NCBI RefSeq assembly: GCF_021502585.1
Contig: NZ_JAKFGM010000002.1
Location: 248,001 to 312,000, forward strand
Source: Sphingomonas cremea
Lineage (GTDB): Bacteria > Pseudomonadota > Alphaproteobacteria > Sphingomonadales > Sphingomonadaceae
Length of the DNA stretch: 64,000 bases
Direction of reading: 5' to 3'
The notes under the pieces were generated by a model that was not told the origin of the DNA, did not search any database, and saw only the letters and a list, made by a program, of their open reading frames with translations. Shown one piece after another: positions 24,396 through 40,649 of the stretch (its first letter is position 1; each line of letters begins with the position of its first letter). Made by a program: the position numbers and the translations under genes.

Positions 24396-25210
24396 TGCCT
24401 CAGCCTTTGCCAGAGTTCGCCGTCACGGTCACGCGGGGGATCTTGGCCGAAGAACAGTTTGAAGCTGGTCGTCGCCTGCTCCACCAGCATTTCAAGGCCT
24501 GTGATCACCAACAGGCCGCGCACCCGCGCTGCCTCGACCAAAGGAGTGTCACCGGGGCTGGTCACCATGTCGAACACCCAGCCGCCGACCGGCATGCGCG
24601 ACAAGTCGCAGTTGAGGCATTCCTGTCCCGCCATGCCAAGCGGAGTCGCGTTGATCAGGCCGTCACTGACGATCTGCTCCGTAAATGGCGTAGGCTCGGC
24701 CTCAAGCCCGAATTCGACCGCCAGCTTCACCGCCTCACCAAGGTCACGCGCCTGGATCCGCACGACAGACAATCCCAGCAGTTTCAGTGCCACCAGCGCC
24801 GCCCGGGCAGCGCCGCCATTGCCCAGCAATGTGATGCTTCCCATCCGCGCCTTGGCGTCGTTCAATCGGGCAACAAGCGCTGCAATGGCGCCGACGTCGG
24901 TGTTTGCTGCAACCAGGCGACCTTCGCGCATCATCAGCACATTGGCCGCCCCGGCTGCGACGGCTCGGTCGGCGGCAGCGTCGGCCAGCGCGACCGCGTC
25001 TAGCTTCAGCGGCATGGTCACGTTGGAGCCGCGCCAATCAGGATCGGTGCGTCTTTCGTTTAGATAGGTTGGGAACTCCGCTCGGGTGACTCGCTGTCTG
25101 CCGTATCGGGCGTCGATTCCCAGGGCTTCGAGCCAAAAGCCATGAATTGCCGGCGACAGGCTTTGATCTATGGGATCGCCGATAACTTCGGCAAAGGGGC
25201 CGGTACTCAT
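24392..25210 (-). CDS. aroE: shikimate dehydrogenase
   Basis: 272 aa from ATG 25210. Substrate site SLSPAIHGFWLEAL and NVTMPLK with catalytic Lys69 (Met in place of a more usual residue before Pro). Nucleotide fold GNGGAARAALVALKLLG. C-terminal GLEMLVEQATTSFKLFFGQ. It reduces 3-dehydroshikimate to shikimate in aromatic amino acid synthesis. Overlaps maf by four bases at its start and coaE by four at its end. Confidence 0.94.
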   Translation of the reverse strand: MSTGPFAEVIGDPIDQSLSPAIHGFWLEALGIDARYGRQRVTRAEFPTYLNERRTDPDWRGSNVTMPLKLDAVALADAAADRAVAAGAANVLMMREGRLVAANTDVGAIAALVARLNDAKARMGSITLLGNGGAARAALVALKLLGLSVVRIQARDLGEAVKLAVEFGLEAEPTPFTEQIVSDGLINATPLGMAGQECLNCDLSRMPVGGWVFDMVTSPGDTPLVEAARVRGLLVITGLEMLVEQATTSFKLFFGQDPPRDRDGELWQRLRQ

Positions 25211-25788
25211 GACTGGAGCACGCCCCGCGCACGAAGCGCACCAAGCAGCGGAAGCAGCGGCATGCCCAAAATGGTGAAGTGGCTGCCCTCGACACTTTCG
25301 AAAAGCGTGACCCCACGGCCTTCCATCCGAAACACGCCCACGCAAAGCCCAACCGCGGGCCACTCAGCATCCAGATAGGCCTGAATGAAATTTTCGCTCA
25401 TCGGGCGGACCTCGAGCCGGGCGGTTTCCGCATGAGTCCAGTCGACATGGCCGCCTCCGGCAAGCGCCACAGCGCTCGACAACAGCATCGTTCGACTGGA
25501 AAAGGCACGAAGATGCGCGGCGGCCTCATCGCGATCGCGTGGCTTTGAATAGCGAACACCATCGACGATGACGATGCTGTCGCTGCCAATCACCCAGTCG
25601 TTCGGCCCGACCGTGACCGATGCAGCCTTCCCCTCGGCGAGCAGCCGAGCCAGCTTCTCGCCGTCAAGGGAGTGGGCTTGTTTGGCCTGATTCTCATCGA
25701 AATCGGGTGCGCGGACGGCAAACTCTACTCCGGCCTGCTCTAGCATCGTCCGGCGAATTTGGCTGTTACTGGCCAATATCAAAGACAT
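25207..25788 (-). CDS. maf: Maf-family nucleotide pyrophosphatase
   Basis: 193 aa. N-terminal LILASNSQIRRTMLEQAG, then PDFDENQAKQ and the catalytic Asp region VIGSDSIVIVDG. Maf proteins hydrolyse modified or canonical NTPs to NMP and PPi and have been linked to septum control. The first gene leftward of the putative origin. Start ATG 25788 with GGAG close upstream. Confidence 0.92.
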   Translation of the reverse strand: MSLILASNSQIRRTMLEQAGVEFAVRAPDFDENQAKQAHSLDGEKLARLLAEGKAASVTVGPNDWVIGSDSIVIVDGVRYSKPRDRDEAAAHLRAFSSRTMLLSSAVALAGGGHVDWTHAETARLEVRPMSENFIQAYLDAEWPAVGLCVGVFRMEGRGVTLFESVEGSHFTILGMPLLPLLGALRARGVLQS

Positions 25789-26090
25789 AAGGCTCCGGGG
25801 GAAAAGTCTGTGGAAAAGTCGCTCATCTTTCTAGCGCGAAGCCGGGGATGACCCAATGGCTTCAATCTGTCCGATTCCGCCCGCGACGGATTCAGGACTC
25901 CGCCCACAGGGGAAAAACATCGTCCACAGCCTGTGAATCATGGGAGAGTCTTGTGGCGACTCGCCAACAGCTGGCGATTCGCGCCGAATCGGCGCCTGTT
26001 GGCAAAGTCGGGAGGCGCGCTTAAATCCCACTCCCAACGCCCCATCTACTCCATCAATCTTCTAATCTTATATATAAGGAAGAATAGAGG
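25789..26090. other. oriC: putative chromosomal replication origin (oriC)
   Basis: A 302 bp gene-free gap between leftward maf and rightward hemE, the site of the origin in Caulobacter and Rickettsia. DnaA-box-like 9-mers: TGTGGAAAA at 25809-25817 (one mismatch to the inverse of TTATCCACA), TCGTCCACA at 25920-25928 and TGTGAATCA at 25932-25940 (each 7 of 9). Eight GANTC sites lie within 25873-25990. A nested palindrome spans 25957-26010. An AT-rich tract at about 26045-26088 could be the unwinding element. Genes diverge on both sides. The DnaA boxes are weak, so the call rests mainly on context. Confidence 0.8.
25957..26010. repeat. nested imperfect palindrome inside the putative origin
   Basis: Outer arms CGACTCGCCAACAG (25957-25970) and CTGTTGGCAAAGTCG (25996-26010) pair except for a short internal mismatch and bulge. 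Inner arms CGATTC (25975-25980) and GAATCG (25986-25991) enclose GCGCC. Three of the eight GANTC sites fall within it. Confidence 0.7.
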
Positions 26091-27152
26091 TTGGCCTCGC
26101 CCTTGCCCGACCCATCCAAGCAAGCGACCGGTCGCCCCGACAAGCCCTTGCTTGCCGTGCTCCGTGGCGAACGTCGTGATCCTCCACCTATGTGGCTTAT
26201 GCGTCAGGCGGGCCGCTACTTGCCCGAGTATCGCGCGCTGCGTGCGACCAAGGGCGGGTTTCTCGACCTGGCTTATGATCCCGAGGCGGCGGCCGAGATC
26301 ACGCTACAGCCCTTACGGCGATTCCCGTTCGACGGTGCGATCCTGTTTTCCGATATTCTGGTTGTTCCGCATGCGATGGGCATGGATTTGACCTTCGTCG
26401 CCGGCGAGGGGCCGCGGCTTTCCCCTCCGCTGGTCCATGCGCCCATTTGCGACCTTTCGCCGCAAATGGAACGGCTTAATCCGATTTATGAGACTGTGCG
26501 GCGAGTTAAGGCCGAATTGGCGCCCGAGACCACATTCCTCGGTTTTGCCGGAAGCCCCTGGACTGTCGCAACTTACATGATTGCGGGCCAAGGTAGCCGG
26601 GACCAGGCCGAAGCGCGCCAATTAGGCTATTCCGACCCGGGCAAGTTGGATGCCATCCTCGACGTCATTTCCTGTATCACGGTTGATTATCTTTCGCGGC
26701 AGATCGAAACGGGCGTGGATGCGGTGCAACTGTTCGACAGCTGGGCGGGAAGCTTGTCGCCGGCGCAGTTCGAGCGCCATGTGATTGCCCGTACCGCCTG
26801 GATCGTCGATCAATTGAAGCGCCGGCATCCAGGCACTCCGATCATCGGATTTCCCAAGGGCGCCGGAGGCAAGTTGCGGGCATATGCCGCGGAGACGAGG
26901 GTCGACGCAATCGGACTCGACGAAACGGTCGATCCTGCTTGGGCTCATCGCGAGCTTCCGGTCGGACTGCCGGTCCAGGGCAATCTTGATCCATTGGCGT
27001 TGGTCGCCGGGGGCGAACCACTGATTACGTCCGTGGAGCGGATCCTTGACGCGCTTGCCGACCGGCCCCACATCTTCAACCTGGGCCATGGGATCCAGCA
27101 GACGACGCCGATCGAGCATGTCGAGGAGCTGGTTGCGCTGGTGAAGGGCTAG
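26091..27152 (+). CDS. hemE: uroporphyrinogen decarboxylase
   Basis: 353 aa. Starts at TTG 26091 with AAGGA about 10 bases upstream; the next in-frame ATG lies past the conserved MWLMRQAGRYLPEY, so TTG is preferred. Substrate residues appear in RQAGRYLPEY and in FPFDGAILFSDILVVPHAMG (the catalytic Asp). C-terminal HIFNLGHGIQQTTPIEHVEE. It decarboxylates uroporphyrinogen III to coproporphyrinogen III in heme synthesis. First gene rightward of the origin; hemJ follows almost immediately. Confidence 0.95.
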   Translation: MASPLPDPSKQATGRPDKPLLAVLRGERRDPPPMWLMRQAGRYLPEYRALRATKGGFLDLAYDPEAAAEITLQPLRRFPFDGAILFSDILVVPHAMGMDLTFVAGEGPRLSPPLVHAPICDLSPQMERLNPIYETVRRVKAELAPETTFLGFAGSPWTVATYMIAGQGSRDQAEARQLGYSDPGKLDAILDVISCITVDYLSRQIETGVDAVQLFDSWAGSLSPAQFERHVIARTAWIVDQLKRRHPGTPIIGFPKGAGGKLRAYAAETRVDAIGLDETVDPAWAHRELPVGLPVQGNLDPLALVAGGEPLITSVERILDALADRPHIFNLGHGIQQTTPIEHVEELVALVKG

Positions 27153-31841: not shown

Positions 31842-31857
31842 AGTTTCACGTGAAACA
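31842..31857. other. parS: parS centromere site 1
   Basis: AGTTTCACGTGAAACA matches the ParB site TGTTTCACGTGAAACA at 15 of 16 positions. It lies in the 65 bp gap between mnmE and mnmG, about 5.8 kb from the putative origin and 2.5 kb before parA. Confidence 0.93.
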
Positions 31858-33703: not shown

Positions 33704-34314
33704 TCGAAGTGCTGAGCGCGGCGGCGAACCGCGACGTTTCACGTGAAACATTTGAACGTCTCCGAGCTTATGCGGACCTTTTGCTTGCCGAGAATAATAG
33801 GCAAAATCTGATCGCACCGAAGAGCATTCCCGACCTTTGGAACCGCCATATCCTCGATGGCGCCCAGCTTCTCGGCGTGGCGCAAGGGGGAGGGAGTTGG
33901 TGCGATATCGGATCTGGCCCCGGGCTGCCCGGCTTGGTGATCGCCATCCTCGGCGGGACGCCCATGACCCTTGTCGAGCCGCGCCGGCTTCGTGCCGACT
34001 TTCTTCGCGGCGCAATCGAGCATCTTGGTCTGGAACACGTGGCGGTGGAGGAGCGCAGGGTCGAACGACTCTCGGGCCAGTTCGACTTTATCACCGCTCG
34101 AGCCGTGGCGCGGCTGGAACGACTGTTCGGCATGGCGTGTCATTTGGCCCACGCTGAAACGAAATGGATCCTGCCTAAGGGCGAATCGGCAAAATCGGAA
34201 CTGGATGAGGCGCGCGCGACGTGGCAGGGTGAGTTCTGCCTGGTACCGAGCCAGACACATAGTGGAGCGGCAATAGTCGTTGCCAAAAATGTCCAGCGGA
34301 GGGGGAAGCAATGA
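33700..34314 (+). CDS. rsmG: 16S rRNA (guanine527-N7)-methyltransferase
   Basis: 204 aa. N-terminal DVSRETFERLRAYADLLLAE, NLIAPKSIPDLWNRHILDGA, and the SAM site WCDIGSGPGLPGLVIAILGG. It methylates G527 of 16S rRNA. The DVSRET codons contain a parS site. Overlaps parA start (ATGA). Confidence 0.95.
   Translation: MIEVLSAAANRDVSRETFERLRAYADLLLAENNRQNLIAPKSIPDLWNRHILDGAQLLGVAQGGGSWCDIGSGPGLPGLVIAILGGTPMTLVEPRRLRADFLRGAIEHLGLEHVAVEERRVERLSGQFDFITARAVARLERLFGMACHLAHAETKWILPKGESAKSELDEARATWQGEFCLVPSQTHSGAAIVVAKNVQRRGKQ
33735..33750. other. parS: parS centromere site 2, inside rsmG
   Basis: CGTTTCACGTGAAACA matches the parS consensus at 15 of 16 positions. It lies within rsmG, where it is read as part of Asp-Val-Ser-Arg-Glu-Thr. 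Confidence 0.93.
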
Positions 34315-35096
34315 TCCGCGTCGCAGTGGCCAATCAGAAGGGCGGGGTCGGCAAGACCACTACCGCTATAAACCTGGCGACGGCGTTGGCGGCAATCGGC
34401 TGGAAAGTGGTCCTGATCGACCTTGACCCGCAGGGCAATGCCTCCACCGGTCTTGGCGTTGGCCAGGCAGCTCGCGAACATTCGAGCTATGACGTTCTCC
34501 TGGGCGAGACCAGCATCGTCGAGGCTGCGGTCGCGACCAAGGTTCCGCGACTCGATCTTGTGCCAGCGACGGTCGACTTGTCGGGTGCCGAAGTCGAGTT
34601 GGTGGGGATGGACGACCGCACTCATCGACTGGCGCAGGCTTTCGACGAAGTGCCGGAGGGGCGCTGGGACATTTGTCTGCTCGACTGCCCGCCATCACTC
34701 GGTTTGTTGACGGTCAACGCGCTGGTGGCGTCACGTCAGTTACTCGTGCCGTTACAGTGTGAATTCTTTGCGCTTGAGGGTCTAAGCCAGCTCCTGCAGA
34801 CGGTGGAGCGCATTCGATTGGCCTTCAATCCTGAGCTATCGATCCTTGGCGTTGCGCTTACGATGTTCGATCGGCGCAACAACCTGTCGCAGCAGGTATC
34901 CGAAGACGTGCGATCCTGTCTCGGAAGTGCCGTGTTCGACACGGTTGTGCCGCGCAACGTGCGGCTGTCAGAAGCGCCAAGCCATGGCTTGCCGGCATTG
35001 ATCTATGACCTGAAGTGCCCGGGATCCGAGGCCTATATCAAGCTCGCCCGTGAAATCATTACGCGCTTGCCGCGTTTCGCACTGGAGGCCGCATGA
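34311..35096 (+). CDS. parA: chromosome partitioning ATPase ParA
   Basis: 261 aa. Deviant Walker A KGGVGKTT at 10-17, VLIDLDPQGNASTGLG, and LLDCPPSLGLLTVNALVASR. C-terminal helix as in chromosomal ParA/Soj. It forms an ATP-dependent gradient on the nucleoid that moves ParB-parS complexes. Overlaps rsmG and parB by four bases each. Confidence 0.97.
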   Translation: MIRVAVANQKGGVGKTTTAINLATALAAIGWKVVLIDLDPQGNASTGLGVGQAAREHSSYDVLLGETSIVEAAVATKVPRLDLVPATVDLSGAEVELVGMDDRTHRLAQAFDEVPEGRWDICLLDCPPSLGLLTVNALVASRQLLVPLQCEFFALEGLSQLLQTVERIRLAFNPELSILGVALTMFDRRNNLSQQVSEDVRSCLGSAVFDTVVPRNVRLSEAPSHGLPALIYDLKCPGSEAYIKLAREIITRLPRFALEAA

Positions 35097-35977
35097 AGAA
35101 AGCCACCGGATTGGGGCGGGGCCTAAGCGCGTTGATCGATGAGGCGGTTCGGCCGGCGAAGGCGAGCACATCGCCTTCGGCTGACGGTGTAAGGGCGATT
35201 GAAATCGGCCGAATTCGGCCGAATCCATCGCAACCTCGCCAACATTTTGATAAGCAGGCGATCGACGAACTCGCGGCTTCTATAGCCGAACGTGGCGTGC
35301 TTCAGCCGATCCTCGTCCGCGTAAGTGGCGATGGTTTTGAACTCATTGCCGGTGAGCGGCGATGGCGCGCGGCGCAAAAAGCACGTTTGCATGAGATTCC
35401 TGCGCTAATCCGCGAGGTAAATGAGGAATCGAGCGCTGAGATAGCTCTAATCGAGAATATCCAGCGCGAAGATCTCAATGCGATCGAGGAAGCCGAGGCA
35501 TACCGGCAGTTGATCGGTCGATATGGCCACAGCCAGGAGGTGATCGGGAAACTTGTCGGAAAGTCGCGCAGTCACGTCGCGAATCTTTTGCGGCTGCTCG
35601 ATCTGCCCGAAGCAGTGCGCTTAATGCTGCTGCGAGGCGATATCAGTATGGGGCACGCTCGCGCCGTCGCGACTGCGCCGGATCCCGAAGCCTTGGCGCT
35701 GCAGATCGTAGATGGCGATTTGTCGGTCCGCCAGGCGGAACATTTGGCAAAGAAAGTCCGGCCTGGCCCAGGTCATGACATTGGCCGTGCATCGGCCCGC
35801 AACGCCGCTCGCCCCATGGACGCCGACCTTTCGGCCCTCGAGCGCCAGTTGAGCGATCTCCTGGGATTAAGGGTCAAGGTTAGCCATGGAAAGAGCGGTG
35901 GCTCGGTATCATTACACTATAGCACGCTCGATCAACTCGACCTGATCTGCCAGCGCCTGAGCGGCGAACCAATTTAG
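35093..35977 (+). CDS. parB: chromosome partitioning protein ParB
   Basis: 294 aa. N-terminal KATGLGRGLSALIDEAVRPA (ParA-stimulating region), CTP-binding box with GERRWRAAQKARLHEIPALI, ENIQREDLNAIEEAEAYRQL, and the helix-turn-helix GKSRSHVANLLRLLDLPEAV. C-terminal dimerisation domain. It binds the two parS sites nearby and spreads as a CTP-dependent clamp. Stop overlaps convergent holA. Confidence 0.97.
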   Translation: MKKATGLGRGLSALIDEAVRPAKASTSPSADGVRAIEIGRIRPNPSQPRQHFDKQAIDELAASIAERGVLQPILVRVSGDGFELIAGERRWRAAQKARLHEIPALIREVNEESSAEIALIENIQREDLNAIEEAEAYRQLIGRYGHSQEVIGKLVGKSRSHVANLLRLLDLPEAVRLMLLRGDISMGHARAVATAPDPEALALQIVDGDLSVRQAEHLAKKVRPGPGHDIGRASARNAARPMDADLSALERQLSDLLGLRVKVSHGKSGGSVSLHYSTLDQLDLICQRLSGEPI

Positions 35978-40453: not shown

Positions 40454-40649
40454 AAACTCTCTCTTCGAGCAAAAAGGGCGTCGTTCAAGGGGCGTTATAG
40501 ATGCTGCCACCGTCCCGGCAAGCGACAGAATTTGGGACAGGCTCAGCGAATCTTGTGGACTCTGCGCAACAGGGGGCGTCTGAATCAAATTGAGTCATGG
40601 AACCGACAGGTTCGGAAGACTATATCCATGATGAACAGGAGTCTTTTTC

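Follow-up and report, generated by a model that had tools for sequence, protein, structure and literature searches.

The intergenic gap between maf and hemE in Sphingomonas cremea, likely the chromosome origin, holds eight copies of GANTC, the recognition sequence of the methylase CcrM, within 118 bp. Judged by comparison of sequences, the array is non-random and conserved in the genus. That it is a maintained array of CcrM sites acting in replication control is given a probability of roughly 0.5; the maintenance of the sites is what the sequences suggest, and from there we infer the role in replication.

The sites start at 25873, 25889, 25896, 25935, 25946, 25958, 25976 and 25986 of the window (the whole stretch of 64,000 nucleotides that was analysed), and the site count agrees at all eight positions with the first-pass annotation. 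The whole window has 177 GANTC, one per 362 bp; its dinucleotide shuffles average 322. GANTC is thus under-represented in the window, and the chance rate that the same annotation had assumed, one per 250-300 bp, is somewhat too high for this genome. (Avoidance of GANTC overall has been reported for CcrM-bearing Alphaproteobacteria, PMC3973325.) When the 302-bp gap was shuffled 20,000 times with dinucleotides kept, eight sites in the gap were reached once and the most in any 118 bp was six. A genome sample of 664 kb, made up of the window and 30 further 20-kb stretches and amounting to 26% of 2.55 Mb, has a GANTC density of 2.17/kb, and this array is the one 118-bp span in it with eight sites. 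The runners-up are a span with six sites just upstream of the likely ccrM start and then one with five (window 40548). Similar clusters, which at many unrelated loci would have spoken against the first-pass annotation, are uncommon in the sampled 26%, although a second one lies at the ccrM promoter region. Among 243 segments from rough gene calls, that with the highest number of GANTC (10) is 25364-26090, which takes in part of the maf coding sequence because the rough calls missed maf. Some short intergenic segments of this genome are denser per kb: four sites in 94 bp at ccrM and three sites in 74 bp. The five GANTC at window 40548-40643, in less than 100 bp, have a DUF3576 gene on one side and a porin-like gene on the other.

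The features of the locus are these, with the basis of each in brackets:

25207..25788, minus strand: maf gene (Pfam PF02545).
25789..26090, 302 bp, no strand: maf-hemE intergenic gap, likely chromosome origin (gene calls, Pfam, alignment of 60 gaps, and DoriC predictions as reported in PMC4741004).
25809..25817, minus strand: DnaA-box-like TTTTCCACA, on the plus strand TGTGGAAAA (motif scan and 60-gap alignment).
25832..25837, no strand: conserved TAGCGC, no role assigned (alignment consensus).
25873..25990, no strand: GANTC array, eight sites (site count, genome-sample scan, shuffles).
25903-25908: CCCACA, listed beside the partial DnaA-box-like TCCACA (motif scan and 60-gap alignment).
25923..25928, plus strand: TCCACA, partial DnaA-box-like motif (motif scan and 60-gap alignment).
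25932..25940, minus strand: DnaA-box-like TGATTCACA, on the plus strand TGTGAATCA, with a GANTC inside (alignment of 60 gaps).
25956..25964, no strand: GCGACTCGC, which holds the most conserved GANTC (alignment of 60 gaps).
25997..26026, plus strand: putative hemE promoter, TGTTGGCAA (read from the sequence and the 60-gap alignment).
25999-26004, plus strand: -35-like TTGGCA of the putative hemE promoter.
26021-26026, plus strand: -10-like TTAAAT of the putative hemE promoter.
26050..26090, no strand: AT-rich end of the gap, candidate unwinding element (AT 0.80 at 26064-26088).
26091..27152, plus strand: hemE gene, start codon uncertain (Pfam PF01208).
31842..31857, plus strand: parS-like site (one mismatch to the parS consensus).
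33735-33750: second parS-like site (sequence match).
34311-35096 and 35093-35977, plus strand: parA and parB, respectively (recognised by eye from the translations alone).

Gene order, DnaA-box-like motifs and the nearby parS-like sites make the maf-hemE gap the likely chromosome origin. The first-pass annotation had placed the cluster in the origin outright; gene order and motifs agree with it, and it is from these that the position is drawn. The origin of Caulobacter crescentus also adjoins hemE, as does the likely origin here. An exact TTwTNCACA DnaA box has no match in the window's maf-hemE gap, where the conserved motifs are DnaA-box-like; 25781-26100 has no exact match to a CtrA-type TTAA-N7-TTAA site; the putative hemE promoter was not recovered by a strict sigma-70 consensus scan; and GC skew is too weak for placing the origin. 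Published predictions point the same way as gene order: Ori-Finder is reported to put the Sphingopyxis granuli origin close to hemE, DoriC to predict most Sphingomonadaceae origins there, and Sphingopyxis strains to have conserved DnaA boxes and a possible unwinding element at the predicted origin (all PMC4741004).

The first-pass annotation had pointed to the equivalent gap in relatives as the place to look for conservation, and the cluster is found there. With hemE located in 61/61 genus genomes searched (its own included), the gap set comprised that of the window and those of 59 relatives out of 60; G012 was left out as its hemE match begins at base 297 of the contig. Each gap has between 2 and 15 GANTC, with at least two in 60/60 and at least five in 35/60; the densest (L087) has 15, 11 of them in 118 bp. 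Together the 60 gaps hold 316 GANTC in 17,084 bp, 4.99 times the base-composition expectation, and none of 23 further pentamers with the same composition exceeds 1.48 times its own (kinship is ignored in both figures). The maf proteins at these loci are well diverged, the nearest to that of the window being 75% identical, and the window gap is 63-77% identical to those of five near relatives, with which it shares 5 to 7 GANTC.

The aligned gaps have in common a DnaA-box-like TGTGGAwAA near maf, TAGCGC, TCCACA motifs, the TGTG-box (25932), GCGACTCGC, TGTTGGCAA and an AT-richer end before hemE. Looked for on both strands and across the whole gap, TGTGGAwAA is present in 47/60, and TGTTGGCAA is present in all 60. 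Two alignment columns recur as GANTC sites, that of 25958 in 56/60 gaps and that of 25935, inside the DnaA-box-like motif, in 41/60. In that motif TGTGAATCA is the reverse complement of TGATTCACA, which is one position off TTATNCACA, the E. coli DnaA-box consensus. The 19 gaps without GANTC at the 25935 column have either a TGTGGA-type box (15) or TGTGA[AG]T lacking GANTC (4). Gaps scored for TGTGA[AG]TC anywhere within them (42/60) imply 8 changes on the maf tree, at least 6 of them forced by starred branches; GANTC has therefore entered or left the DnaA-box-like motif repeatedly. In a test for helical phasing the spacing of neighbouring sites is more periodic than random at periods 9.5 to 12, a broad signal from a test that ignores shared ancestry, and no weight is placed on it. 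Window 25957-26010 can form a strong hairpin (z -5.6) with GANTC in its stem; as a shared feature it was rejected, z being below -3 in just 4/60 gaps.

What appears to be preserved is the short recognition sequence. Without the two recurrent columns 219 of the 316 sites remain, spread over 56 alignment columns, and with these columns masked the enrichment is still 3.68-fold (218 counted), the next pentamer reaching 1.55-fold (kinship again ignored). At the 219 variable sites the N is T in 76, A in 60, G in 43 and C in 40, and the flanks are nearly even. GANTC (316, or 219 without the recurrent columns) outnumbers every one-step neighbour in the gaps (CANTC 102, AANTC 89, GANCC 77, others fewer), and in the 64-kb window it ranks ninth among the 13 patterns formed by itself and these neighbours. 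The free N, even flanks and scattered columns therefore speak for CcrM as the recognising protein and against one with a longer site, and the pattern is consistent with sites selected for being recognised by CcrM, wherever exactly they lie. That the packing is kept while many sites shift suggests that the tag itself matters, for the start of replication or for the adjacent gene.

The adjacent gene brings in the main rival, GcrA acting at the putative hemE promoter. On this account, which we regard as possible though clearly short of probable, methylated GANTC would recruit GcrA and RNA polymerase, or tune the hemE promoter or an origin-crossing transcript, and replication control would be incidental. 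The genome encodes gcrA as well as ccrM, as do systems with GcrA/CcrM-dependent promoters, and here too GANTC lies near a promoter-like element: TGTTGGCAA follows the array in all 60 gaps, and 249/316 sites start 11-120 bp before it. The GcrA motif is given as YGAKTCG (PMC7987155); the other strand of the most conserved site has CGAGTCG, which fits it, as do 52/97 sites of the two recurrent columns, and 53/60 gaps contain one or more of these extended motifs. A promoter inside Caulobacter Cori is also said to be essential for replication (PMC4287350). Against this, the 219 variable sites have no excess of YGAKTCG (27 seen against 31.3 expected), and 0/316 sites are in the putative promoter core, a zero that is partly forced because the core is conserved sequence. 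The sites lie before the -35-like element or past the core, whereas the Caulobacter group of transcription start sites activated at 40-60 min is reported to have GANTC between -10 and -35 (PMC4287350), and they are far more numerous than at GcrA/CcrM-dependent promoters. GANTC near promoters is otherwise on record in the order, with up to five reported in the 300 bp upstream of ctrA in Sphingomonadales (PMC8116508); in this genome gcrA has one in 300 bp upstream.

It is unlikely that another origin-binding protein has a motif that happens to contain GANTC, methylation being irrelevant. Such a protein would account for GCGACTCGC, which is in place in most gaps with its flanks conserved, but hardly for the 219 remaining sites, whose free N, even flanks and 56 start columns are unlike a longer binding site, nor for the coincidence of the enriched pattern with what CcrM recognises. 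Less likely again is that the array is there chiefly for CcrM, working together with the ccrM promoter cluster as a dense sink or a timer, or that it helps the duplex to open. N6-methyladenine weakens base pairing; the AT-rich end of the gap is nevertheless a likelier opening site than the array. For the sink or timer, the ccrM promoter region (L164:8171-8355, upstream of the likely ccrM start) has the second densest cluster of the 26% sample, and at all 30 ccrM loci (L204-L233, the best 30 matches of 61 genomes, its own included) the 400 bp preceding the DPPY codon carry 3 to 10 GANTC, a 4.85-fold enrichment, with 2 to 7 in the densest 118 bp; the next pentamer in this stretch, ATNGC, is however also raised, 2.79-fold, because the stretch includes coding sequence. 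Chance, or a general tolerance of GANTC between genes, is very improbable. By rough gene calls GANTC is indeed commoner in intergenic than in pseudo-coding sequence of this genome (3.16 against 2.06 per kb), and an intergenic excess has also been reported elsewhere (PMC3973325), but the gap, with 8 sites in 302 bp or 26 per kb, has about eight times the intergenic mean, and the clusters in the corresponding gaps of the genus, with the enrichment seen there, already contradict it.

Many GANTC positions recur across the 30 ccrM loci. The dnaA promoter of this genome has five GANTC within 112 bp upstream (L302:224-335), and over 29 of 30 dnaA loci (L305, of 195 bp, was dropped) the mean is 2.3 per 250 bp, a modest 2.48 times expectation. 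Upstream of dnaA in many relatives there are two GANTC, near -112 and -67.

The preferred reading, an array of CcrM sites in replication control, needs the methylase, and ccrM, which the first-pass annotation had counted on, is encoded in the genome with N6_N4_Mtase and RAMA domains. GANTC is reported as the most abundant methylated motif in Sphingomonas sp. AAP5 (PMC8067484), and in the species studied CcrM is described as confined to a brief late stage of the cell cycle (PMC8725594, PMC8116508). On this reading CcrM would methylate the sites of the array late in the cell cycle, and initiation would render all of them hemimethylated at once. A mark so dense amid DnaA-box-like motifs may alter the loading of DnaA on the origin, either directly, via the GANTC inside the motif at 25932-25940, or via a further reader protein. 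New origins would then differ from old ones until CcrM returned and restored methylation. The effect may be to delay initiation or to help it, and the mark or delay in the manner of GATC and SeqA that the first-pass annotation proposed is a step beyond what the cluster itself shows.

Likenesses to known systems are partial. E. coli oriC, under Dam and SeqA, also has many adenine-methylation sites in the origin (here the likely one): 11 GATC are reported, with several low-affinity DnaA sites overlapping GATC (PMC5145175), an overlap that sequence alone suggests here for GANTC. The methylase and the motif differ, and a search for the SeqA family PF03925 gave no match in this genome (among 14 control genomes E. 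coli alone matched). In Agrobacterium tumefaciens CcrM-dependent methylation has been proposed to time initiation at ori2, though there through repABC and gcrA expression and at a RepABC, not a DnaA, origin (PMC11514494). Caulobacter has CcrM and GcrA, and several GANTC motifs are reported in the origin of C. crescentus and its close relatives (PMC3973325). The window gap, whose GANTC density is high, differs from Cori in having maf as direct neighbour and in the missing exact CtrA-type site.

GANTC in the Caulobacter origin is thus already in print, as are models that make full methylation of Cori a precondition for the next initiation (PMC2217572, PMC8865702), and the first-pass annotation, which was aware of no described origin of such density, is right only in part: GANTC in origins is not new (PMC3973325), and among the matches listed in a literature search, which covered titles and abstract openings and few subscription papers, there was no GANTC array at a Sphingomonadaceae origin. 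CcrM over-expression is reported to give extra chromosome copies in Caulobacter, and initiation control to be normal in ΔccrM cells in minimal medium (both PMC3973325). The latter result counts against a role in initiation, and it may or may not transfer by analogy to an origin of such density. CcrM control of initiation in alphaproteobacteria has accordingly been printed both ways, with models that require a methylated Cori (PMC2217572, PMC8865702) against the normal ΔccrM strain (PMC3973325). An origin region whose GANTC seem to be maintained for CcrM, at a density far above background, offers a lineage for testing this and shows which sites to alter.

Beyond the genus the array thins out. 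Of 80 hemE loci 77 were used, 45 of them Sphingomonadaceae-like by hemE identity (some titled otherwise) and 32 others; L003 has too little upstream sequence, and L002 and L007 were left out because both carry the short maf-hemE gap of this genus. The 45 have GANTC at 3.54 times expectation in the 300 bp upstream of hemE (kinship ignored), or 12.9/kb there against 2.2/kb in the sequence that begins with hemE. In most of them these 300 bp hold 2 to 5 sites; single loci (L017, L038 and L079) reach 7 or 8 in 118 bp, with eight in L017 (Sphingomonas zeae). For the 32 other alphaproteobacterial loci the enrichment is 2.52-fold, kinship likewise ignored. A dense cluster occurs in 1/22 genomes from the order's other families: G063 (L197) has 14 GANTC in the 500 bp before hemE, which may be a dense array of independent origin.

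Class-wide, over 67 of 93 genomes with hemE (L267, of 42 bp, was dropped, and hemE need not adjoin the origin everywhere), the observed/expected ratio upstream of hemE is 1.74 in 49 genomes with CcrM and 1.32 in 18 without (Mann-Whitney p = 0.13), absence here meaning no RAMA match, with G514, G524, G526, G538 and G544 counted absent as missing among the matches listed. At GC below 0.5 the ratios are 1.01 and 1.14. Class-wide enrichment is therefore mild and not clearly tied to the presence of CcrM. Within the order 395/397 genomes have a RAMA match; the two lacking it, confirmed with the CcrM protein as query, are uninformative because their CcrM-bearing kin G068 and G078 are equally sparse, with 0 or 1 GANTC upstream of hemE. 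By these counts the dense array belongs mainly to the Sphingomonadaceae and is, of the groups compared, strongest in this genus.

The Sphingomonadaceae-like loci also bear on the direct route of the preferred reading, which in its most specific form is a switch that does without SeqA. Dense CcrM sites, in most examined species of the genus with one of them within a DnaA box (TGATTCACA replacing a TTATCCACA-type box), would let DnaA read methylation, and in contrast to Caulobacter initiation would be coupled to CcrM. The rest of the Sphingomonadaceae would have a weaker array, mostly without the in-box site. This version is doubtful, and it is rated lower because few loci beyond the genus have a GANTC within the DnaA-box-like motif: TGTGANTC or GANTCACA is present in just 4/45 Sphingomonadaceae-like loci, and a TGTGGAwAA-type box in 25/45. 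Since it is also absent from 19/60 gaps within the genus, an in-box GANTC cannot be a general requirement. Among 12 of the 45 loci that were inspected by sequence, L005, L013 and L026 carry TGTGGATAA.

In Sphingomonas zeae a Kinase-PPPase gene (PF03618; L017:1358-2311) is situated between maf and hemE. The distance between these two genes is about 1.1 kb in most other Sphingomonadaceae-like loci; in this genus there is the short gap alone. Two loci titled Bacillus sp. 2B10 (L018) and Microvirga sp. SRT01 (L033) have sphingomonad-like hemE regions and are possibly mislabelled.
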